NCBI RefSeq assembly: GCF_005116675.2
Contig: NZ_CP050699.1
Span: forward strand, 2,317,001-2,381,000
Reading direction: 5' to 3'
Length of the DNA stretch: 64,000 bases
From: Desulfosediminicola ganghwensis
GTDB taxonomy: Bacteria > Desulfobacterota > Desulfobulbia > Desulfobulbales > Desulfocapsaceae
In this document: piece by piece, positions 17,714 through 27,758 of the stretch
Numbering within the stretch: position 1 is the stretch's first letter
Layout: every line of letters begins with the position of its first letter
Notes under the pieces: generated by a model
Databases searched by the model: none
The model's input: only the letters and a program-made list of their open reading frames with translations
What the model was told of the DNA's origin: nothing
Translations under genes and position numbers: made by a program

Positions 17714-18994
17714 TTAATTACCTATGTATCCGGCCAGCCACATGGAAAGTGGCGGATAGAAGGAGATGATGAGCAGGTCGACTATCAGTATCAGCAGAAA
17801 AGGGACAATCCTTCTGCTGATGGCACCGATATGCTCCCCTGAGATTGCACCTGAAACGATCAGGCAAATGCCCATGGGTGGGGTGAGCATACCGATGGCC
17901 AGGTTGGTGACCACGATAACCCCGAGATGGATCAGATCGATACCGAGGGCCGGCACCATGGTGACGATCATCGGCACCAGCAGGATAAGCGCTGCGGTGG
18001 TTTCCACAAAGGTGCCGGCGATAAGCAGTAGCAGGTTGATCAGTAGCAGCAGGATAATCGGATTATCCGAGATGGAGAAAAGTGTTTCGGCGAGTCGTGC
18101 AGGAAGATCTTCTATGGCTGCAATCCAGCTGAATACCGACGCGGTTGAGATGATAAACATGACCACTGCGGCGATGATCGAACCTTCTATGAAAACTGTT
18201 GAGAGGTCGCGGAGCCGAATTTTTTTATAGATAAACATTCCGACGGCCAGGGCATAAGCGACAGCTATTGCAGCTGATTCCGTGGCGGTGAAAATGCCGA
18301 ACAGGATGCCGCCTAAAACGATAATGGGTGCCCCCAGCGACAGCAGCGCCTGGCGCAGGGCTGTAAAAACCGCTTTGGTGCTGAAAACATTTTGCGCCTT
18401 ATAGCCGTGTTTGACCGAGATGAGGGTGGCGGTCGCAATCAGGGTCAATCCTATAAGAATGCCCGGCAGGATACCTGCGGCAAAGAGTTTGCCGATGGAA
18501 GCCCCTGTCAGAAAGCCAAAAATAATCATAGGAATTGATGGTGGAATAATAACGCCTATACTCCCCCCGGCCGCCTGCACCGCCGCGGCGAAATCTGCTC
18601 GATATCCCGATCCCCTCATTGCCGGGATGAGCAGTCCCCCAACCGCGGCGGTGTCGGCGGCCGCTGAGCCGGAGATACCTGCAAAGAACATGGCCGAGAC
18701 AATGGTCACAGCAGCAAGACCTCCAGGCAGCCAGCCGACCAGTGCATTTGCCAGATTGATGAGCCGCTCGCTTATGCCGCCTTTTTCCATCAACAGTCCC
18801 GCATACATGAACAGCGGTACCGCCATCAAATGAAAGGAATCGGCTCCGGAAAACATTCGCTGAATAACAACCATCAGGGAAAAATCGCTGCTGATTATCA
18901 TCACCGATACGGAAGCAAGGCCGATGGCGATTGCGATGGGCACATTGAGCAGAAAGAGTGTCAGCAGGAGTATCAGCAGTAACGATCCGCTCAT
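17714..18994 (-). CDS. dctM: TRAP transporter large permease (DctM)
   Basis: A 426-residue inner-membrane protein of the DctM family with 12 or more hydrophobic segments. Family signatures include LGLASVSVMI, MFAGISGSAAADTAAVGG (near residue 95), AAGGSIGVIIPPSIPMIIFG (near 140) and FVETTAALILLVPMI, LGVIVVTNLAIGMLTPPMG near the end. It forms the Na+-coupled channel of a tripartite periplasmic transporter. It overlaps the small permease gene by four bases and is the last gene of dctPQM. The substrate is a carboxylate or related acid by family, not fixed by sequence. Confidence 0.92.
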   Translation of the reverse strand: MSGSLLLILLLTLFLLNVPIAIAIGLASVSVMIISSDFSLMVVIQRMFSGADSFHLMAVPLFMYAGLLMEKGGISERLINLANALVGWLPGGLAAVTIVSAMFFAGISGSAAADTAAVGGLLIPAMRGSGYRADFAAAVQAAGGSIGVIIPPSIPMIIFGFLTGASIGKLFAAGILPGILIGLTLIATATLISVKHGYKAQNVFSTKAVFTALRQALLSLGAPIIVLGGILFGIFTATESAAIAVAYALAVGMFIYKKIRLRDLSTVFIEGSIIAAVVMFIISTASVFSWIAAIEDLPARLAETLFSISDNPIILLLLINLLLLIAGTFVETTAALILLVPMIVTMVPALGIDLIHLGVIVVTNLAIGMLTPPMGICLIVSGAISGEHIGAISRRIVPFLLILIVDLLIISFYPPLSMWLAGYIGN

Positions 18995-19563
18995 TTTTTC
19001 CCAATCCTTGTCTTTATCTCATCCTGCACTTTTCCGGGGCAGAGCTCAAAGAGGAGCATGGCCAGCCCGTGCAGGCTCAACAGGAGGCCGCTGGCGGGAA
19101 TGATTGAGAAGATAATCCATTTGGGAAGCATCAGGGCCGGCGTGGTCTGCAGCCGGACAAAGTAGGCGAACTCGATCCCATAGCGGATGATGATGAAGAA
19201 AAAGAAGAGGCAGAGCAGATGAACAAGAAGCCGGTTGAACAATTTAGCATGTGAGCCCAGGCGCGAATAGATGAGATCAACCCCGGGATGCATACCGCGC
19301 CAGTAGGCTACGGCGGCACCCAGGAAGGTCAGCCACACCAGTAGGTACCTGGCCAGCTCTTCAGACCAGAATAGTGAACTGTTGAGGACGTAGCGGCAAA
19401 ACACCTGGCTGACCACGACCAGTGTCATCAATGAACCGAGCCCAAGTAAACTGTGTTCAGTCAGCCTGTTACAAAAACAACTGAAACGGGCCGTCTGCAG
19501 CGCAAGCAGAGCCAGCAAACTGATCGACCGGTCCCTGGGCTCGGAGGGAATTAGAGGCAACAT
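18991..19563 (-). CDS. dctQ: TRAP transporter small permease (DctQ)
   Basis: A 190-residue four-helix membrane protein. The family motif FWSEELARYLLVWLTFLGAA is at about residue 65 and is followed by AYWRGMHPGVDLIYSRL. The first helix contains MTLVVVSQVFCRYVLNSSL. The N-terminus before residue 35 is not conserved and no clear ribosome-binding site precedes 19563, so a later start is possible. It sits 32 bases after dctP and overlaps dctM by four bases, and it supplies the accessory subunit that binds the large permease. Confidence 0.88.
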   Translation of the reverse strand: MLPLIPSEPRDRSISLLALLALQTARFSCFCNRLTEHSLLGLGSLMTLVVVSQVFCRYVLNSSLFWSEELARYLLVWLTFLGAAVAYWRGMHPGVDLIYSRLGSHAKLFNRLLVHLLCLFFFFIIIRYGIEFAYFVRLQTTPALMLPKWIIFSIIPASGLLLSLHGLAMLLFELCPGKVQDEIKTRIGKK

Positions 19564-19595
19564 TATCTTATGAAGATGAAAATAGTATTCTGAGC

Positions 19596-20576
19596 CTATT
19601 CTTTTGTTGCCTCAAGCACCCTGCCGAGAAGATCCTGTACTTTGGGTTCACCGAAAAGAGCAATGTTTTTCAAGTCTGAAACTTTTTCCCTGAAAGCAGA
19701 CCTGTCCAATTCTTCGATCACCACCATGCCTTTTGCTTTGAGAAGAGTAAGCCTGTCAGCGTCCTTGGCCCGATTATCGGCCCGTTGGAATCTGGCCGCC
19801 TCCTGCATCGCCTCAGTTATGAGCTGCTGCTCTTCGGGCTTCAATCTTTTCCACCAACTCAGGGAGGCCACGTCAATATGAGCCGAATAGACGTGGCGGG
19901 TCATACTCATATATTTCTGGATTTCAAAGAATTTGTAGACTTCCATAACCCAGAGAGGGTTTTCCTGGCCGTCGATGACTCCCTGCTCAAGCTCGGTATA
20001 GATGGGCCATGGCATGGGGGTGGGGTTGGCTCCGAGTCCCTGCCAGATCGCTTTGTGCAGGGCGGATGCCATGACACGGATTTTTAACCCCCGCACGTCA
20101 TCCGGGCTTTGCACACTTCGCTTGGAATTTGTCAGGTTACGAAAGCCATTTTCGGAAAAGCTGATGCCTTTAAATCCCGATGATTCAAGACTCTTAAGTA
20201 TTTCACTGCCAAGCGGACCGTCCAGTATCTCGTCGGCCTGATCATTGTCTTTAAAAAGAAACGGATAATCGATCACCCTGACTATCGGGTCGAAACTGTC
20301 AAAAGGACCGGAGGTGATAACACCCATCTGGATGGTGCCCATCTGTATTTGCTGGAGAATCTCGGTCTCATTTCCCAGGGAGGCGGAGTGGAAGATCTTG
20401 ACCCGAAACCTGCCTTCGGAGCGGGCTTCCAATAGTTCCTTGAATTTGTCGGCCACAATATTCTGGGCCGAACCCGGCTTGGTGACTACTCCAAGCTGAA
20501 TGGTGGTTGCAGCGTTTACTGAGGAAAGAAGAACAAGGCAAAGAAAAAGAGGGAACAGTAGAAAGGAGTGTCTCAT
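19596..20576 (-). CDS. dctP: TRAP transporter substrate-binding protein (DctP)
   Basis: A 326-residue periplasmic protein with a signal peptide (cleavage near VNA-ATTIQLG). Binding-protein landmarks are EARSEGRFRVKIFHSASLGN, GFRNLTNSKRSVQSPDD, GLKIRVMA (the conserved substrate Arg, near residue 167) and ELEQGVIDGQENPLWVM. The DctP-type organic-acid fold is unambiguous. It is the first gene of the operon with dctQ and dctM. The 437-base upstream gap (20577-21013) separates it from the divergent RidA gene and shows no recognisable operator. Confidence 0.9.
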   Translation of the reverse strand: MRHSFLLFPLFLCLVLLSSVNAATTIQLGVVTKPGSAQNIVADKFKELLEARSEGRFRVKIFHSASLGNETEILQQIQMGTIQMGVITSGPFDSFDPIVRVIDYPFLFKDNDQADEILDGPLGSEILKSLESSGFKGISFSENGFRNLTNSKRSVQSPDDVRGLKIRVMASALHKAIWQGLGANPTPMPWPIYTELEQGVIDGQENPLWVMEVYKFFEIQKYMSMTRHVYSAHIDVASLSWWKRLKPEEQQLITEAMQEAARFQRADNRAKDADRLTLLKAKGMVVIEELDRSAFREKVSDLKNIALFGEPKVQDLLGRVLEATKE

Positions 20577-21013
20577 AGCCTGCGTACTCGCGTTGAGGGT
20601 GAATGGAAAGACAATCGTTTCGGACAGTTCGGGAACTATATCATTTTGCGGTGAAATGTCAAAGAAAGCCCGAACCGTTTTACGTGTATTGAGGCTGGCA
20701 CAAGGGTGCGGGCAGTGTGGGAAACGGGTTGACTTAGTTGTACTGATCGGCTATGGGCTGGATTTATCCCTTAAAATTTTATAATGGAAGACATGGTTCC
20801 GGATTTGTGTTCCTATGGCTGCTCTGAAATGGTCGCTTACCCAGAGACCGGAAAAGAGCGCTGAGAGAAGGATGGGCTGACAGGATCATGCGGGGACCCT
20901 TTTGTATCGAAAAGGAGTCTCCGGGGCCCTGTCGGAGCCTGTAGTCGCAGCACATTGAACATGGTCAGATCGACAGAAAAGCATTCAATTGCAAACAAAT
21001 AGAGAACAGGAAA

Positions 21014-21370
21014 ATGACGATTACACGAATGGAAACCAAACAGCGGATGAGCAGGATCGTTATCCATAACGGTACAATTTATCTCTGTGGTCAGGTTGCG
21101 GAAGATGCGAGCAAGGGAATTAAGGAACAGACTGAAACGATGCTCGCCAAGGTTGATTCCCTCCTGGAGCAGGCAGGGAGTGACAGAAAACATATCCTCT
21201 CTGCCACCATCTATATCAAATCTATGGACTATTTTGCTGAGATGAACGAGGTGTGGGACAATTGGGTCCCTGAAGGGCATGCACCGGCGCGTGCCTGTGT
21301 GGAGGCGTCCATGGCCAGAGATGCTTTGCTGGTCGAGATTTCCGTCGTAGCGGCGGTAGTGGAAGAGTAG
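21014..21370 (+). CDS. ridA: RidA-family imine/enamine deaminase
   Basis: A 118-residue member of the RidA/YjgF/YER057c family, which hydrolyses reactive imines formed by PLP enzymes. Family motifs are [16 protein letters not shown] near the N-terminus, [23 protein letters not shown] in the middle and the catalytic Arg in [12 protein letters not shown] near residue 97, followed by [10 protein letters not shown]. Trimeric cytoplasmic enzyme by family. AGGAAA precedes the start. It belongs to the shorter subgroup with YxCGQVA. The neighbouring aminotransferase and deaminase genes make 2-aminoacrylate-type imines plausible targets. Confidence 0.85.
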
Positions 21371-21630
21371 TTGCAGCAGAGGGTCGTGGAATCTGTCCCA
21401 CCCAGGATAAGGTAATGTGGTAGAACCTGGGATCGTGCATGATTATCTGCAGAGCGTCCTTCTGCTGTTGTGAGGAGGGCGCTCGTTGTATTTACGCTGG
21501 GAGTCTGCCGGACTCAGCCCTCTTCAAACAACTCATCGTTCTCGAAGGGAAAATAATGTTGCAATATCAATCGTATGGCTCCGCTTATTTTCCTTCGATG
21601 CCTCGACAGAAAGCTCAGGAGAAATTCGGG

Positions 21631-21945
21631 CTAACGCGCAGAGGCTGGTGGGTTGAGATTGGTTATAAAGCTTGGGAAGGCTGTCCCACCAAGAACTTCT
21701 GCCAGCTTAGTAAATATTGCGGTAATGTTGGGCAGGAGTTCATCGGGAACGATCGCCTCGATTTTCGTTTGAGTGGAGTGGTGTACCACACGTTCAACAC
21801 CTCTGTATGTCTCTGTTTTAGCCTCACCTCTATTGAAAACCCGTATTTCCGCCGCCGCCACCGAAAGGGCTCCGGCTGCAAAAAGTTGTTCTTCAAATTC
21901 GGTAATCTGCATTGATGTGGGTAAAAACGCCTCAATTTTAATCAT
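21631..21945 (-). CDS. Divergent PII-like protein
   Basis: A 104-residue protein whose first 80 residues align with GlnB/PII without gaps: MIKIEAFLP at the N-terminus, the T-loop segment of identical length ending in TETYRGVERVVHHSTQTKIE, and the strand EAIVPDEL. The Tyr that E. coli uses for uridylylation (Tyr51) is Arg here (GVER), while the earlier Tyr (TYRG, position 46) is kept. The B-loop (TGxxGDGKIF) that binds ATP is absent and replaced by EVLGGTAFPSF. So it is a PII fold that is probably not uridylylated and may bind no ATP. It overlaps the upstream ACT-repeat gene by four bases (ATGA), so the two are translationally coupled. Ligand unknown. Confidence 0.65.
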   Translation of the reverse strand: MIKIEAFLPTSMQITEFEEQLFAAGALSVAAAEIRVFNRGEAKTETYRGVERVVHHSTQTKIEAIVPDELLPNITAIFTKLAEVLGGTAFPSFITNLNPPASAR

Positions 21946-22820
21946 CTCTTTTCCCCTAGTAGTGTCCCTTCTATAGATCTGGCCAGTTCTTCTGTTACAC
22001 CAGTGTTGCTGAGTGGCTTGAGGTAGTAAATGTCCTCTATACCATTCTCTCTTGCAGTGAAACGGGCGATCACGGTATCGAGCTTTTGCCGGCAGAAAAT
22101 TTCCTGCAATGATTTGCGGGCTGCGGTTACATTCCCTGTTGCCCTGATAATAAGCGCTGGAAGGTTGCCGCTGGCGTCCACTGTTATTGTAATATCATCA
22201 CAGACGGCTCCAGAACTGTCAGGCGGTGTTGATTCTGAAAGTTCTCCCTTCTCCAGCATATCCTTTATTTCATCCTGAAGACGCTGGATGTTGCCAACAG
22301 TTGGAGGAGCGGTTGTGAAGGTTATGAAATCTTTGTTACCTTGCCGGTATTTTCTGCCACCGGTAATGGCCATGTCCCTTATTGCGAGCACGTGAAAGAT
22401 TTTATAAAGAAAGCTGTGGTTAAGAGTTGAGTCGATTGTCATCCGGATGGAAGCTTCGGACAGGATACTTACCCGGCAATTCGCAGGAACAGACGACTGG
22501 GGAATGAGTTCTTCCATATCAGAATGAACATCGTTTTTCTCTTCCTTAAGAGGCATTCGAGCAAGAAATGACTGGCACGGGTATGACTGGATATCGACAA
22601 CGTTTTCAAGCGCGGAGAGTTTACCCACGAGCTCTGTCGGGTTTTCTCCGGTAAAGATTTCGACTCTGGTATCGGCGGAAGCATTTACGCTATCCTGGCC
22701 ACCCTTATGCCGGAAAGAAACGTCCAGTGCACCAACAAGACAAGGGGTGTCGGGCAAGTTACCAAGCAATTGAGTGAGTTCTTTCTGCTGGGTATACACT
22801 TCAATTTTGTGCATTTCCAT
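21942..22820 (-). CDS. Protein with GlnD-type ACT repeats, partner of the PII-like protein
   Basis: A 292-residue cytoplasmic protein I cannot name. Residues about 1-90 look like a ferredoxin-like alpha/beta domain (VNASADTRVEIFTGENPTEL, then ALENVVDIQSYPC). Residues about 117-190 resemble a GlnD-type ACT domain (TLNHSFLYKIFHVLAIRDMA, ITGGRKYRQG, DFITFTTAP). Residues about 210-290 look like a second one (LIIRATGNVTAARKSLQEIF, VIARFTARENGIEDIYYLKP, TEELARSIEG). There is no nucleotidyltransferase or HD domain, unlike GlnD. GAGG precedes the start. It is the first gene of a two-gene unit with the PII-like protein, suggesting a small-molecule sensor pair in nitrogen control. Confidence 0.55.
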   Translation of the reverse strand: MEMHKIEVYTQQKELTQLLGNLPDTPCLVGALDVSFRHKGGQDSVNASADTRVEIFTGENPTELVGKLSALENVVDIQSYPCQSFLARMPLKEEKNDVHSDMEELIPQSSVPANCRVSILSEASIRMTIDSTLNHSFLYKIFHVLAIRDMAITGGRKYRQGNKDFITFTTAPPTVGNIQRLQDEIKDMLEKGELSESTPPDSSGAVCDDITITVDASGNLPALIIRATGNVTAARKSLQEIFCRQKLDTVIARFTARENGIEDIYYLKPLSNTGVTEELARSIEGTLLGEKR

Positions 22821-23019
22821 CTGTTTACCTCATAAGTGAATATTCTTTTCTTACGAGGGTAAAAGCAATAAACGTGCCTGACCTTTGTTTGGTTAATTAG
22901 CTGTGATTATTTAACTAAAAGCTCGATTGTGGTAGTTGCGACGTTTGAGGATAGAGCGAGGCTTACCAACAAATATGTGTAGGATAGTTACAGAAATGTA
23001 ATGGCAGCTGAGGCTGGAA

Positions 23020-23044
23020 GGAGGCAGTGAACGTAACTGCCTCC
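23020..23044 (-). terminator. Hairpin downstream of the PuuD-like gene
   Basis: GGAGGCAGT-GAACGTA-ACTGCCTCC forms a perfect nine-base-pair stem 13 bases beyond the stop codon of the minus-strand gene that ends at 23057. No T-run follows in the direction of transcription, so it is a weak terminator at best or an mRNA 3'-end stabiliser for the dpp operon. Confidence 0.5.
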
Positions 23045-23056
23045 AGTAAATACAGG

Positions 23057-23782
23057 TTAGTTTCGATGACCGTTACTGGCAGTAACAAGCGCTGAGAAGA
23101 GACCGAGAAAATGGGTGTGTTTCAAGGTAAGGTCTTCAGGGTGCCATTGAACGCCGACGGCGAAGGAGTGGTCCTGGTGTTCGATCGCCTCGATGATCCC
23201 GTCGTCTGAGCGGGCGGTAACGGTAAAAGAATTGGCCACATCTTTTACTGCCTGGTGATGAAAGGAATTGACCATGAGCCTGGAGGACTTGAAAATTGAT
23301 TCAAGTTGGGATTTTTCTTCAAGTGTTACCGCATGATAGACTGAGTCCACCGGCATGTTTTTGGGAAGGTGCCCGAGAGAGGCATCAACCTGGCTGAAGA
23401 CATCCTGATACAGGGTACCGCCACAGGCGACGTTTAAGGTCTGCATCCCCCTGCAGATGCCGAGGATGGGTATGTTCTGCCGCATCGATTCAGTAATGAG
23501 GTGGACCTCGCTACAGTCACGCTCCGGACAGATGCATTCCAACTGACGAACTGGGTTTTCACCATAAAGCTGAGGGTTTACTCCTTCGTCTCCACCGGTG
23601 ATCAGCAGGCCGTCGATGATGGCCAGATAACGTTCCCGGGTCTCGGCATCAGCCACCACCGGCAACAGCAGCGGTATCCCCCCGGCTCGTTCAACGGAAT
23701 GAACATAGTTATTACTGACGGTGGCATACACTTTTTTGGCACCCTGGATAAGGGCGGTGGTAATTCCGATTACTGGTTTCAT
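23057..23782 (-). CDS. Gamma-glutamyl-gamma-aminobutyrate hydrolase family peptidase (PuuD-like)
   Basis: A 241-residue class I glutamine amidotransferase-like hydrolase of family C26. The nucleophile elbow ILGICRGMQTLNVACGGTL holds the catalytic Cys (near residue 112), and the His and Glu are in GVQWHPEDL near residue 218. NSFHHQAVKDV and a LLPVV opening match PuuD, which splits gamma-glutamyl-GABA to GABA and glutamate in putrescine degradation. GGAGAG precedes the start. It follows an RpiR regulator and a peptide importer on the same strand, so the substrate may be an imported gamma-glutamyl compound. Whether it is the true PuuD activity is inference. Confidence 0.8.
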   Translation of the reverse strand: MKPVIGITTALIQGAKKVYATVSNNYVHSVERAGGIPLLLPVVADAETRERYLAIIDGLLITGGDEGVNPQLYGENPVRQLECICPERDCSEVHLITESMRQNIPILGICRGMQTLNVACGGTLYQDVFSQVDASLGHLPKNMPVDSVYHAVTLEEKSQLESIFKSSRLMVNSFHHQAVKDVANSFTVTARSDDGIIEAIEHQDHSFAVGVQWHPEDLTLKHTHFLGLFSALVTASNGHRN

Positions 23783-23851
23783 CTCATCTCTCCAGCCAGG
23801 TAAAAAATATTATAAAACCGATTACTCGGTGCAGGCAATTCCGAGGTTTGG

Positions 23852-24697
23852 TCATGAATGACGGTAAAAGCGTTTATCATCAAAAAACTGCTGACGTTCT
23901 TCGAGAATATCCATCACTTTGTCTTTCTTGCGATACAGCACCATGGAAGAGACAAGGTTGACCCAGAACAGCGGGCCAATGAATGAATTGCCGAAAAACA
24001 TGGCATCTGTCGGGCAAAAAAAGGTATTTTCAGCCAGTTCTGCCAAGGGGCAACGCGGCGAATCTGTTATCACGGAGATGTGCACTTTGCGATCAGCCAG
24101 TCTTCGCACTGCTTCAATCACCTCAAGATTGTAGGGGGGGAATTCAAAAACAAGTAATATATCTCCAGCTTGTAAAAGTGTAGATTCTTCAAGTAAAGTT
24201 CCATGCTTACGTGTGATTGTGTTGCAGCGAATACCGGTCATCTTCATCCGCAGGGCGAAGATCTCAGCCAGATGGCCGGAGACTCCCCAGCTCATGGTAT
24301 GAATTTCACCAGCCTGCAGGAGCGCTTCCACCAACGTGTCGATCCGGTTAAAGTCTATAGATTCCAGTGTGTTGGAAATGTTTTCTTTTTCTTTTTGACA
24401 CAGTTCTGCAGCATCAAGATGGTAATGGCTGTTGATGACACTCTTCATTTTGCTGGCCGGAGAACCTTGCAGCAGTACTTCCTGTTGCAATACCTTCTTG
24501 AACTCGGCATAGCCTGAAAATCCTGCTTTGGTGGCAAAGCGCATCAAGGTGGTTTTTGAGATGTTAAGCGTCGATGCTACTCTGCCGATCGAGTGAAGGG
24601 CAAAAGTCTTGGCGTCTTTGGCCATCAGGTCATAGATACGTTTTTCATTGGCGGTCATCTCCTGGTAGCGGGTACCTATGCGTTCTATCAAGGTCAT
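23852..24697 (-). CDS. RpiR/MurR-family transcriptional regulator
   Basis: A 281-residue regulator with an N-terminal helix-turn-helix of the HTH_6 type (SIGRVASTLNISKTTLMRFA near residue 36) and a C-terminal SIS sugar-phosphate-isomerase-like domain (WGVSGHLAEIFALRMKMTGI near residue 138, VFEFPPYNLEVIEA, VISDSPRCPLA-like run). The gene overlaps dppF by four bases (ATGA), so it is part of the dpp operon and may autoregulate it. Ligands of this family are often phosphosugars, but the operon partners point to peptide or gamma-glutamyl compounds. The effector is unknown. Confidence 0.82.
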   Translation of the reverse strand: MTLIERIGTRYQEMTANEKRIYDLMAKDAKTFALHSIGRVASTLNISKTTLMRFATKAGFSGYAEFKKVLQQEVLLQGSPASKMKSVINSHYHLDAAELCQKEKENISNTLESIDFNRIDTLVEALLQAGEIHTMSWGVSGHLAEIFALRMKMTGIRCNTITRKHGTLLEESTLLQAGDILLVFEFPPYNLEVIEAVRRLADRKVHISVITDSPRCPLAELAENTFFCPTDAMFFGNSFIGPLFWVNLVSSMVLYRKKDKVMDILEERQQFFDDKRFYRHS

Positions 24698-25710
24698 TGT
24701 TTCCCCTCCGCAGCTTTTTGATCACGTTTGATATCCTGCCAGTGGTGGCAGGCGATCTGGTGTGGTTCGAGATCCCTTCGTATGATTGTCTCCAGCATGG
24801 GCTGCTTTTTTCTGCATATAGCAGTAGCGTAACGGCAGCGAGTCTGGAATTTGCAGCCTTCAGGAGCATTGATGGGTGAGGGGATTTCACCCTCAAGGCC
24901 TATTCGCTTTTTGCGCTGCCCCGGTAAAGCGGCGGGGATAGCTGAAATGAGCGCCTGGGTGTATGGATGCCGGGCCCCGTCCCGGAGGGCACTGCTTGGC
25001 AGCAGTTCCACAATGTTGCCCAGGTACATGACAGCGATGGAATGGGCGATATGCTTGACCACCGACAGGTCATGGGTGATGAACAGGTAGCTGACATGTA
25101 ACTGCTGCTGGAGACGTTTCATCAGGTTCAGCGATTTGGCCTGCACTGATACGTCGAGTGCAGACACCGGTTCATCGGCTATAACGATTGCAGGTTCGGT
25201 GGCCAGCGCTCTGGCGATACCCACCCGCTGACGCTGACCACCTGAAAATTCATGGGGATAGCGCTGGGCGTATTCTCTTCTGAGTCCGGTCAGTTCCATA
25301 TATTCATGGACCAGCTTCTCGCTCTCTTCTTCCGGCCGGTGAAACTTCACTGCCTCACCGACGATCTCACCTACAGTCATCTTCGGGTCGAGCGATGAAA
25401 ACGGGTCCTGAAAGATCATCTGCATCTGTTTTCTGAAGGGCTTCAATTCTGCCTCACTGCAGGAGAGAATATCCACGCCTTTGCAGGTGACTTCACCACC
25501 ACTAGCGGCGACAAGTCTGACCAGTGCCTTGGCCACGGTGGTTTTGCCGCAGCCGGATTCTCCAACCAGGCCAAGGGTTTTGCCGCGATACAAGTCGAAG
25601 GAGACACCGTCCACAGCCTTTACATGGCCTACAGTGTGCCTGAAGAGGCCTTTTTTCACCGGGAAATGGACCTTGAGATCTCTTACAGACAGTACTTTCT
25701 CATTATCCAT
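24694..25710 (-). CDS. dppF: Peptide ABC transporter ATP-binding protein (DppF/OppF-type)
   Basis: A 338-residue ATPase. Walker A GESGCGKTT is near residue 53, the signature FSGGQRQRVGIARALATEP near 162 and Walker B IVIADEPVSALDVSVQ follows. The C-terminal oligopeptide-specific extension (GCKFQTRCRYATAICRKKQP) carries the four-cysteine pattern of OppF/DppF. The frame is open from 25770, but the start at 25710 is chosen for AGGA upstream and the eight-base overlap with dppD. It ends by overlapping the rpiR gene. Confidence 0.9.
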   Translation of the reverse strand: MDNEKVLSVRDLKVHFPVKKGLFRHTVGHVKAVDGVSFDLYRGKTLGLVGESGCGKTTVAKALVRLVAASGGEVTCKGVDILSCSEAELKPFRKQMQMIFQDPFSSLDPKMTVGEIVGEAVKFHRPEEESEKLVHEYMELTGLRREYAQRYPHEFSGGQRQRVGIARALATEPAIVIADEPVSALDVSVQAKSLNLMKRLQQQLHVSYLFITHDLSVVKHIAHSIAVMYLGNIVELLPSSALRDGARHPYTQALISAIPAALPGQRKKRIGLEGEIPSPINAPEGCKFQTRCRYATAICRKKQPMLETIIRRDLEPHQIACHHWQDIKRDQKAAEGKQ

Positions 25711-26725
25711 TTTCCTGGACCTCTTCATGCTTGGTATCGGAGTAGAGCCAGCAGCAGGCATAATGCTCATTGCCGAAGCTGGTGCGGGGTGGTTCCTCGG
25801 TTTTGCAGCAGTTCATTCGCTTCGGGCACCGTGGTTCAAAATTACATCCCCCGGGCAGATCGAGCGGGTCGGGTACCGTGCCGTCGATGACGTCGAGCAT
25901 ATCCATCTCTTCATCAATATCGAGCACTGAGTTTATAAGGCCTTCAAGGTAGGGATGCCTGGCGTTGAAGAAAATGTCATTCACTTTGCCATATTCAACA
26001 ATCTGGCCACTGTACATCACCGCTACTTTATCCGCGGTTTCGGCAACTACGCCCATATCATGGGTGATAAGGATCACCGCCATGCCTATTTTTTGCTGCA
26101 GTTCGGCAATCAGTTCAAGAATCTGGGCCTGAATGGTTACATCAAGGGCACTTGTGGGCTCATCAGCGATGAGGAGTTCCGGTTTGCAGGCCAGGGCGAT
26201 GGCGATCATCACCCGCTGACGCATTCCTCCGCTTAACTGATGCGGGTACTCATCCACTCTGGCCCGGCCATCGGCAATTCCTACCATGGCCAGCAACTCT
26301 ATGGCTTTCTGCTTCGCCTCGGAGCGGGAGTACCCCTGGTGCAGAACCAGACTTTCACCTATCTGCTGCCCCACAGTCATGACCGGGTTAAGCGAGGTCA
26401 TCGGTTCCTGGAAAATCATGGCAATGGAGTTGCCGCGAATGCGCTGCATTTCATTACTGTTCAATTCCAGCAGATTTTCGCCCCTAAAGAGAATTTCGCC
26501 GCCGGTGATCTCGCCCGGCGGGTTAGGGATAAGCCCCAGGATGGACATGGCGGTAACCGACTTTCCGGAGCCGGATTCACCGACCACAGCCAGGGTCTCA
26601 CCTTTATTGACCGAGTAATTCACTTTGTCACAACCTTTGACAATACCGTCCTCGGTGTGGAACCAGGTTTGCAGATCTTTAATTTCCAGTAAGGGTGTTA
26701 TTGGAGGTGTTGTCTGTGATTTCAT
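25703..26725 (-). CDS. dppD: Peptide ABC transporter ATP-binding protein (DppD/OppD-type)
   Basis: A 340-residue ATPase of the DppD group. Walker A GESGSGKSVTAMSILGL near residue 42, signature LSGGMRQRVMIAIALACKP near 155, Walker B LLIADEPTSALDVTIQ, and a C-terminal cysteine cluster GCNFEPRCPKRMNCCKTEEP. The start 26725 is chosen over the open frame's earlier Met because AGAGGTGA lies upstream, 13 bases after dppC's stop. It overlaps dppF by eight bases. The pair powers the peptide importer. Confidence 0.9.
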   Translation of the reverse strand: MKSQTTPPITPLLEIKDLQTWFHTEDGIVKGCDKVNYSVNKGETLAVVGESGSGKSVTAMSILGLIPNPPGEITGGEILFRGENLLELNSNEMQRIRGNSIAMIFQEPMTSLNPVMTVGQQIGESLVLHQGYSRSEAKQKAIELLAMVGIADGRARVDEYPHQLSGGMRQRVMIAIALACKPELLIADEPTSALDVTIQAQILELIAELQQKIGMAVILITHDMGVVAETADKVAVMYSGQIVEYGKVNDIFFNARHPYLEGLINSVLDIDEEMDMLDVIDGTVPDPLDLPGGCNFEPRCPKRMNCCKTEEPPRTSFGNEHYACCWLYSDTKHEEVQENG

Positions 26726-26738
26726 AATTGCGTCACCT

Positions 26739-27758
26739 CTAAGCGTTGAGTCTGCTGTCAAGCGCGTCCCGCATACCGTCGCCGAACAGGTTGCAGGAGA
26801 GCACAATAAGCAAAATGGTTACACCGGGAACAACCGACATCAGCAGGTTGTCATGGAGGAATTGCTGACCGTTGGCAAGCATGCCCCCAAGACTCGGCAT
26901 CGGCGGCTGGATGCCAAGGCCAAGAAAAGACAGGCCTGCAATTACCAGGATGGTTTCACCGATTGAGAGACTGGCCATTACCAGAATTGGTGATATGCAG
27001 TTGGGAACTATGTGACGCGTGATAATGGCCGGGTTGGAGATACCAATAACCCGGGCAGCGGCAATGTAATCAGCCTCTTTTACCGTGAGCACCGAGCCGC
27101 GGATAATTCGGGCAAAAGCCATCAGGTTTGAAAGGCTGACAATCAGGATAAGTTTACCCACGCCGGTTCCCAGGGCAGCCATAATGGCAATAGCCAGCAG
27201 GATAAAAGGGATGGAATTCCAGATTTCCAGGGACCGCATGATGATTGAGTCGGTTCTGCCGCCGTAATAGCCGGCGATCAGACCGAGGAAGGTACCGATC
27301 AGGGTGTTGAGAATAACTGCGGTGATGCCAATGCCGAGAGCGACCCGGATACCGAACAGGGTGCGGGCAAAAATATCACGGCCGAGATCGTCAGTTCCCA
27401 GCCAGTGACTGCTGCTCATGCCCTGGGACAAGGCACCCCAATCCGTCTCAAGAGGGTCATGGGGGCTGACAAATGGTGCCAGCAGTGCGGCGTAAATGAG
27501 GATTATGAGTACCACCATGCCGAACATGGCGTTTTTGTTTTTTGAAAGTCTTTTCCACATCAGCTGGCCGGAGCTTTTTACTCTATTTGTAGCCATGCGC
27601 TGGTTACTCCTATTTATGGCATAGGCCATGAAGAGTGTAGCGGCTGTGAGGAGAGCGAAGAAACAATAGGAGATCAGATCCTGTCCGGCCTTGGGAGCGA
27701 AGCTCACCAGCAGGACAAAAGAAAAAAGAAAAAGATAAAAAGTTTTAACCCGCAGCAT
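26739..27758 (-). CDS. dppC: Peptide ABC transporter permease (DppC-type) with extended N-terminus
   Basis: A 339-residue permease of the OppC/DppC family. The BPD_transp_1 EAA loop reads DYIAAARVIGISNPAIITRHIVPNCISP near residue 237. The family N-terminus normally begins at about residue 55 (MATNRVKSSGQLMWKRL), but here about 54 extra residues contain two more hydrophobic segments (YLFLFSFVLLVSF and LISYCFFALLTAATLFMAY). AGGGGA upstream of 27758 supports the long start, and only eight bases separate it from dppB. The extension is odd for the family and unexplained. Confidence 0.85.
   Translation of the reverse strand: MLRVKTFYLFLFSFVLLVSFAPKAGQDLISYCFFALLTAATLFMAYAINRSNQRMATNRVKSSGQLMWKRLSKNKNAMFGMVVLIILIYAALLAPFVSPHDPLETDWGALSQGMSSSHWLGTDDLGRDIFARTLFGIRVALGIGITAVILNTLIGTFLGLIAGYYGGRTDSIIMRSLEIWNSIPFILLAIAIMAALGTGVGKLILIVSLSNLMAFARIIRGSVLTVKEADYIAAARVIGISNPAIITRHIVPNCISPILVMASLSIGETILVIAGLSFLGLGIQPPMPSLGGMLANGQQFLHDNLLMSVVPGVTILLIVLSCNLFGDGMRDALDSRLNA

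Follow-up and report, generated by a model that had tools for sequence, protein, structure and literature searches.

A divergent PII-like protein and a GlnD-related ACT-repeat protein encoded side by side in Desulfosediminicola ganghwensis: a candidate non-enzymatic sensor pair

PII proteins read ATP/ADP as well as 2-oxoglutarate, and in many bacteria GlnD adds a further input by uridylylating them. Two overlapping genes that Desulfosediminicola ganghwensis shares with some other sulfate-reducing bacteria raise the question of what such a switch could still do when a PII-like protein without the sites for these inputs is encoded together with an ACT-repeat protein that carries no enzyme domain. 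The window analysed here is a stretch of 64,000 nucleotides (contig NZ_CP050699.1, positions 2,317,001 to 2,381,000), and the open reading frames of 104 and 292 amino acids that an earlier note had called in it from the letters alone were confirmed together with their ATGA overlap, as follows:

21942..22820, minus strand: gene 1, P0002, a 292-aa ACT-repeat protein (open reading frame; first gene of the pair)
21631..21945, minus strand: gene 2, P0001, a 104-aa PII-like protein (open reading frame, downstream of P0002)
21942..21945, minus strand: ATGA overlap of P0002 and P0001, 4 bases (read from the sequence; probable translational coupling)
22551..22820, minus strand: predicted N-terminal ferredoxin-like domain of P0002, residues 1-90 (low-confidence AlphaFold2 model)
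22245..22487, minus strand: predicted ACT domain 1 of P0002, about residues 112-192, with the motif GRK-x-RQG-xx-DF (model and hhalign to GlnD)
21951..22208, minus strand: predicted ACT domain 2 of P0002, about residues 205-290, with Arg235 and an IED-x-YYL strand (model and hhalign to GlnD)
21790..21807, minus strand: T-loop tip of P0001, Tyr-Arg-Gly-Val-Glu-Arg, equivalent to GlnB 46-51 with Arg at 51 (alignment)

Promoter and terminator scans gave no excess over shuffles.

A single-sequence search with P0002 gave matches in 3 of 58 genomes, its own included, and a three-member profile located the ACT gene in 7 of the 257 genomes of the order Desulfobulbales, again with its own: the window genome (G000), Desulfosediminicola flagellatus IMCC35005 (G003), Desulfogranum japonicum DSM 18378 (G168), the sister MAGs BRH_c16a (G084) and GWB2_56_26 (G085), G031, and G189. 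The PII-like gene lies 3' of the ACT gene, on the same strand and in the same order, at every one of the seven loci. The survey of co-occurrence that the earlier note had suggested found the homologues adjacent in 7/7 loci rather than alone and far apart, and the coupling it had read from the overlap is real. The PII-like gene is intact in six of the seven carriers, with intergenic gaps of -4, +2, -1, -14, -8 and +2 bases, and the copy in G189 is without about 48 internal residues. A search of the 257 genomes for a PII-like gene without an ACT partner (E 1e-18) found none as close as the five profile members and, since it missed the known G031 member at that threshold, shows only that much. 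Beyond the order, the ACT-profile search found no pair in a 395-genome sample of the phylum, and a scan of one species-genome collection with a single 10-residue pattern, which did not return G031 and G189 (they deviate from the pattern or may be absent from the collection), found none either. Carriage by mobile elements was considered and rejected: at E 1e-3 plasmid and phage records contained nothing related to P0002, and none of the seven pattern matches in viral contigs was a relative either. Among the open-access literature matches listed there was no account of such an ACT/PII-like pair.

The PII homology claimed for P0001 was borne out above chance by three kinds of comparison. In phmmer against solved structures P0001 matched E. 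coli PII at E 7.6e-7; the five-member PII-like profile, run as the profile search proposed earlier, matched solved PII in the PDB at E 7.2e-17; and hhalign of the PII-like set against 29 canonical PII gave 98.6% with a score of 87, the best of 20 column shuffles reaching 16. P0001 matched NCBIfam PII models at E 2.1e-7 and 31.4 bits, far below the equivalog cut-off of 202, and two of these models each matched 5/5 PII-like members at E <=0.01. In Pfam, P0001 stayed under the gathering cut-off of PF00543 (14.1 bits vs 25), a family that matched 3/5 PII-like members at E up to 10, with a best E of 0.0024. Identity to canonical PII was 25-30%. The predicted structure (pLDDT 86.5) returned PII chains for all of the best 50 of 1482 Foldseek matches in the PDB (E up to 10; 1ufl is a PII), and in VIA-align CutA, CPII, SbtB and PstA came out level with PII at Z of about 9-10, so that the fold alone cannot separate them. 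Judged by its sequence, P0001 is a divergent PII homologue, with homology detectable across the domain. CutA, SbtB, CPII, PstA and DUF3240 share the ferredoxin-like PII fold with P0001 and differ in that P0001 groups by sequence with true PII through the T-loop; no ACT-repeat partner is known for any of the five.

The six intact PII-like proteins were compared with 29 loci (L002, L003 and L009-L035) that came from the same PII searches and were all canonical. Gln39, Gly87, Asp88, Gly89, Lys90, Arg101, Lys58, Tyr46-Arg47-Gly48, Lys60 and Glu62, and likewise Arg103, were each present in 29/29 of this set, the open reading frames having been filtered on Tyr46-Arg47-Gly48, Gly87, Gly89 and Lys90 (29/29 loci passed, each with a filtered frame that overlaps the P0001 match). 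P0001 shares with canonical GlnB/GlnK (PF00543) the predicted fold, the length, the Tyr46-Arg47-Gly48 tip, Lys60 and Glu62, and these five residues were kept in 6/6 PII-like proteins; the PII-like proteins differ in that Gln39, Gly87, Asp88, Gly89, Lys90 and Arg101, as well as Thr29 (Ser or Ala instead) and Gly35, were kept in 0/6. Lys58 occurred in 3/6, and Arg103 in 1/6, where it is the last residue of P0001 and was taken as coincidence. In published structures, Thr29, Gln39, Gly87, Lys90, Arg101 and Arg103 contact ATP or dADP (PMC8395244; B- and C-loops in PMC7919409), and the site for 2-oxoglutarate and Mg consists of Gln39, Gly41, Arg9 and Lys58 (PMC8395244). The B-loop had been described as missing; its ATP-binding residues are indeed gone (0/6), while the loop itself is roughly kept in length and not in sequence. 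Arg in place of the uridylylated Tyr51, also claimed for P0001, was confirmed and holds in 5/6 PII-like proteins, Tyr51 being retained in Desulfogranum japonicum. With its defining sites tested and absent, the predicted P0001 protein is not a canonical PII.

What has been kept is the end of the output loop: the T-loop tip of P0001 ranks among the best-conserved parts across the six intact genomes, and YRGVxR is found in 5/6 PII-like proteins. I take the T-loop residue that plugs Amt to be Arg47. In published structures the T-loop is described as essential for target binding (PMC8395244, PMC7919409) and as sitting in the Amt exit channel, with the plugging residue named as Arg41 (PMC8395244).

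The origin of P0002 was visible at the level of the family. Alone, P0002 was assigned to no family by Pfam or NCBIfam and matched the PDB once, without significance (E 1.3); none of the seven ACT-protein members was recognised by a Pfam ACT family, and the seven-member profile A3 matched 0 chains in the PDB. Among 395 genomes drawn from the phylum, A3 gave matches in 65, its own included; the gene itself aside, every listed stretch begins at profile position 130 at least, and, with three exceptions, these stretches fall within open frames of 852-989 aa. The five A3 loci that were classified are GlnD (TIGR01693, E 2.2e-108 or better, the fragments being cut by locus ends), and 21 of 29 A3 loci (L047-L075) yielded an open reading frame with the GlnD-like motif D-[VT]-F-Y. 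Against 21 GlnD C-termini the ACT part reached 97.3% in hhalign (E 2.5e-11, 166 columns) with a score of 77, the 20 column shuffles scoring 21 or less and the reversed profile 14; ACT domain 1 taken singly gave 78.8% (E 1.7e-5) and ACT domain 2 95.8% (E 8.1e-9). Single members matched GlnD models at a best E of 8.6e-6, with 2/7 members or fewer per model. No nucleotidyltransferase, GlnD_UR_UTase or HD family was found in the seven members (Pfam, E up to 10), and P0002 has 292 aa vs the 863 of the GlnD frame in the same genome. The proposal of GlnD-type ACT repeats without an enzyme domain was thus upheld by the family profile and by single members, and not by P0002 alone, by the Pfam ACT families or by the profile search of the PDB; the search for the ACT origin did return GlnD C-termini. 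As far as these alignments go, the C-terminal 180 residues of P0002 descend from the tandem ACT region of GlnD. With no recognisable enzyme domains, P0002 is not itself a GlnD, from which it differs further by an extra N-terminal domain and by replacement of the DRPG-type ligand loops.

The AlphaFold2 model of P0002 had a pLDDT of 78-91 for residues 111-190 and of 73-91 for residues 201-290 (10-residue blocks), and residues of about 112-290 superposed on aspartokinase (Z 13.7, 143 residues, 2.8 A), the threonine deaminase regulatory domain (Z 10.8, 135 residues, 3.0 A) and CASTOR1 (Z 9.4, 145 residues, 4.0 A). These three share with P0002 the tandem-ACT fold alone, at an identity of 4-8%, which makes this a relation of fold, and ancestry points to GlnD. 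With P0002 as query, Foldseek returned a mixture of ferredoxin-like structures, many of them poor matches. The glycine of the beta1-alpha1 ligand loop, near-invariant in GlnD and ACR11/12 according to PMC3173338, was present in 0/7 members in ACT1 and in 1/7 in ACT2. The GlnD comparators had it in 9/11 (ACT1) and 8/9 (ACT2), counting rows with a letter there; own_G168, a wrong row of 23 aa, and two rows that end ahead of ACT2 were left out. Since GlnD's presumed ligand loops are changed, glutamine sensing cannot simply carry over to P0002. Arg235, in the ACT2 beta1-alpha1 loop two positions past the glycine site, was invariant (7/7). The motif GRK-x-RQG-xx-DF of ACT1 (P0002 residues 155-165) was absent in G031 and altered in G189.

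The two-ACT architecture given for P0002 held as far as the tandem goes, and has to be amended by the loss of GlnD's loop glycine and by an additional ferredoxin-like domain ahead of it, which was modelled with low confidence (pLDDT 35-77 in 10-residue blocks) as beta-alpha-beta-loop-beta-alpha-beta. Superposed on single ferredoxin-like domains from several families, this domain scored at most Z 8.0, which the tool describes as common, and the hhalign profiles linked it clearly to neither PII nor GlnD. A second PII domain, which the topology would allow, was rejected: canonical PII gave 0.3% with a score of 12.3, the shuffles reaching 13.1 and the reversed profile 17.0. A weak hint came from the PII-like set (10.7% over 8 columns, score 21.7, with all 20 shuffles at 15.4 or less). 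Cys82 of the N-terminal domain was invariant in the seven homologues.

A connection to nitrogen genes was found beside the pair in the two sister MAGs. In G085 an amtB gene (PF00909, E 9.5e-105) lies about 0.3 kb away in divergent orientation, with a canonical glnK behind it, and in G084 the pair is divergent from amtB at about 2 kb, again with a canonical glnK behind and with an L,D-transpeptidase gene between. The amtB genes beside the pair are 85% identical between G084 and G085, and as the two belong to one genus, the amtB-glnK neighbourhood was counted as one event. There was no Amt match on the pair's contig in G031, G168 and G189, nor within 1 Mb of the pair on the chromosome in G000 and G003. 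The stretches L090:704-4021 and L042:2100-7338, from these two MAGs, are the sole nitrogen-related neighbourhood noticed among the seven loci.

The reading I prefer, with a probability of roughly 40%, is that of a non-enzymatic pair whose ACT protein, and not nucleotides or uridylylation, would control the PII T-loop. P0001 would be a PII descendant that kept the fold and the T-loop tip and gave up ATP and 2-oxoglutarate as inputs, and most PII-like members would have given up uridylylation as well; P0002 would derive from the C-terminal ACT pair of GlnD, free of catalysis and with a ferredoxin-like domain added at the N-terminus. Given the loss of the canonical sites in both, the two halves would be without their classical inputs, with the tip of the output loop preserved. 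P0001 and P0002 would form a complex, in which P0002 may respond to a small metabolite; this would probably be an amino acid, and not necessarily glutamine. By non-covalent binding P0002 may hold or free the T-loop of P0001. The freed T-loop might then act on a target in the nitrogen network; retention of the T-loop tip and the amtB-glnK neighbourhood in the MAGs make an Amt ammonium channel the best guess. The small-molecule sensing module that the earlier note had considered possible survives here in its PII-like part without uridylylation and nucleotide sites, its GlnD-type ACT tandem and its coupling, and not as a simple transfer of glutamine sensing, the ACT loops being changed. Several points count against the pair mechanism: with the ACT loop glycine absent, P0002 may bind no amino acid; the predicted G168 protein keeps Tyr51 and the Pfam ACT families miss P0002; and the link to Amt comes from one genus (G084 and G085).

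The pair comes on top of the canonical set, because the window genome itself still has amtB-glnK-glnD, at 5.41 Mb, along with another amtB-glnK at 0.238 Mb; GlnD was found in six of the seven carriers and not in G189. Two canonical PII genes, each adjoining an Amt gene, would also provide partners for a different role, in which P0001 acts as a dominant-negative or tuning PII, entering heterotrimers with GlnB/GlnK or competing for AmtB, GlnD or other targets, and P0002 is a mere partner or stabiliser. The retained PII fold and T-loop tip agree with this, and Arg51, which cannot be modified, would be in keeping with a form barred from uridylylation. I consider it unlikely: it leaves unexplained why a GlnD-derived ACT protein is encoded upstream in 7/7 loci, and at only 25-30% identity between P0001 and canonical PII mixed trimers are uncertain.

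A precedent for a GlnD-like ACT repeat that works by binding is known from plants. With its GlnD-like ACT tandem and no recognised enzyme domain, P0002 would fit the architecture of ACR11 and ACR12 as described; these two differ in being chloroplast proteins with the conserved glycine retained. According to PMC4944146 and PMC3173338, ACR11 acts by binding a nitrogen-assimilation enzyme, the partner reported being Fd-GOGAT and not a PII-like protein. By analogy, ACR11 would count for the proposed mechanism of the pair, and it would equally fit an arrangement in which P0002, a GlnD-derived ACT pair without catalytic domains, is the active member and binds canonical PII, GlnD or an amino-acid enzyme (as ACR11 does GOGAT), P0001 being merely a structural subunit. 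The locus in G189 (84% complete) fits this arrangement too, and counts against the pair mechanism: an intact ACT gene is followed there by a 58-codon open reading frame (L044:2433-2610) in which both ends of the PII-like protein survive and a single deletion has removed 48 internal residues with the T-loop. A one-deletion model scored 73 against the G031 PII-like protein (60 shuffles reached 35) and also lay above the shuffles for G000, G003 (44 vs 43), G084 and G085; it failed against G168 (15, shuffles 24). The short frame may be a natural trimming, decay or an assembly error, and accordingly the ACT protein of G189 may work alone or the locus may be decaying. That P0002 is the sole active member nevertheless seems improbable, as few parts of P0001 are as well conserved across the other six genomes as the T-loop tip, which argues for P0001 as an active effector.

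Among the six intact pairs, identity ranged from 22-53% for the ACT protein and from 25-67% for the PII-like protein, and in 14 of the 15 genome pairs it was just 22-30% and 25-43%, respectively, with the open frames retained. The two identities co-vary (r 0.83 over the 15 genome pairs), a value driven by one close pair. In the sole pair measured, G084 vs G085, dN/dS was about 0.35 (0.33/0.95) for the ACT gene and about 0.15 (0.23/1.53) for the PII-like gene, and both genes are under purifying selection there. A patchy distribution (7/257 genomes), the loss of active sites in both halves and one damaged copy (G189) could suggest that a glnK-glnD region was duplicated and is now decaying, weakly constrained and with no present function. 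This is very improbable given frames that persist at such low identities, dN/dS below 1 in the two MAGs, and residues specific to the family (YRGVxR in 5/6, Arg235 in 7/7); the gene order, ACT-PII in the pair vs glnK-glnD in the window genome's canonical cluster, also speaks against it.

For the preferred pair mechanism a more specific version can be put forward, though only tentatively and with slightly less assurance than the mechanism itself: the PII switch would have been rebuilt without nucleotides or covalent modification, as a nucleotide-blind effector whose T-loop is gated non-covalently by a GlnD-ACT sensor with a changed ligand, alongside an intact amtB-glnK-glnD. If this is true, the input and output halves of the classic PII/GlnD system are able to come together anew as a sensor pair that works without covalent modification. 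The module would be a small one, made of two probably soluble proteins.

The genes around the pair in the window had been read as linked to it, RidA converging on it and a gamma-glutamyl hydrolase lying upstream. This link did not hold: at E 0.01 neither these two, the hydrolase being of the C26 type, nor the RpiR regulator had a match in the 9.9-20 kb around the other six loci, and the three were rejected as linked neighbours. Homologues of the hydrolase were found elsewhere, in G001 (62%, a genome without a match to the ACT protein), in G085 (37%) and, over a part, in G189 (40%), with weaker ones in G084 and G002. Outside the two sister MAGs, the shared neighbours were only of widespread families such as response regulators and kinases. 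In the window (17714-27758) the pair stands between TRAP-transporter-like genes (DctP by Pfam). RidA is found on one side of it; the other side has the C26 hydrolase, the RpiR regulator and oligopeptide-type ABC transporter genes, and this region looks like a cluster for the uptake of amino compounds. In G031, a DctP-like protein (27%) is encoded about 11 kb from the pair.
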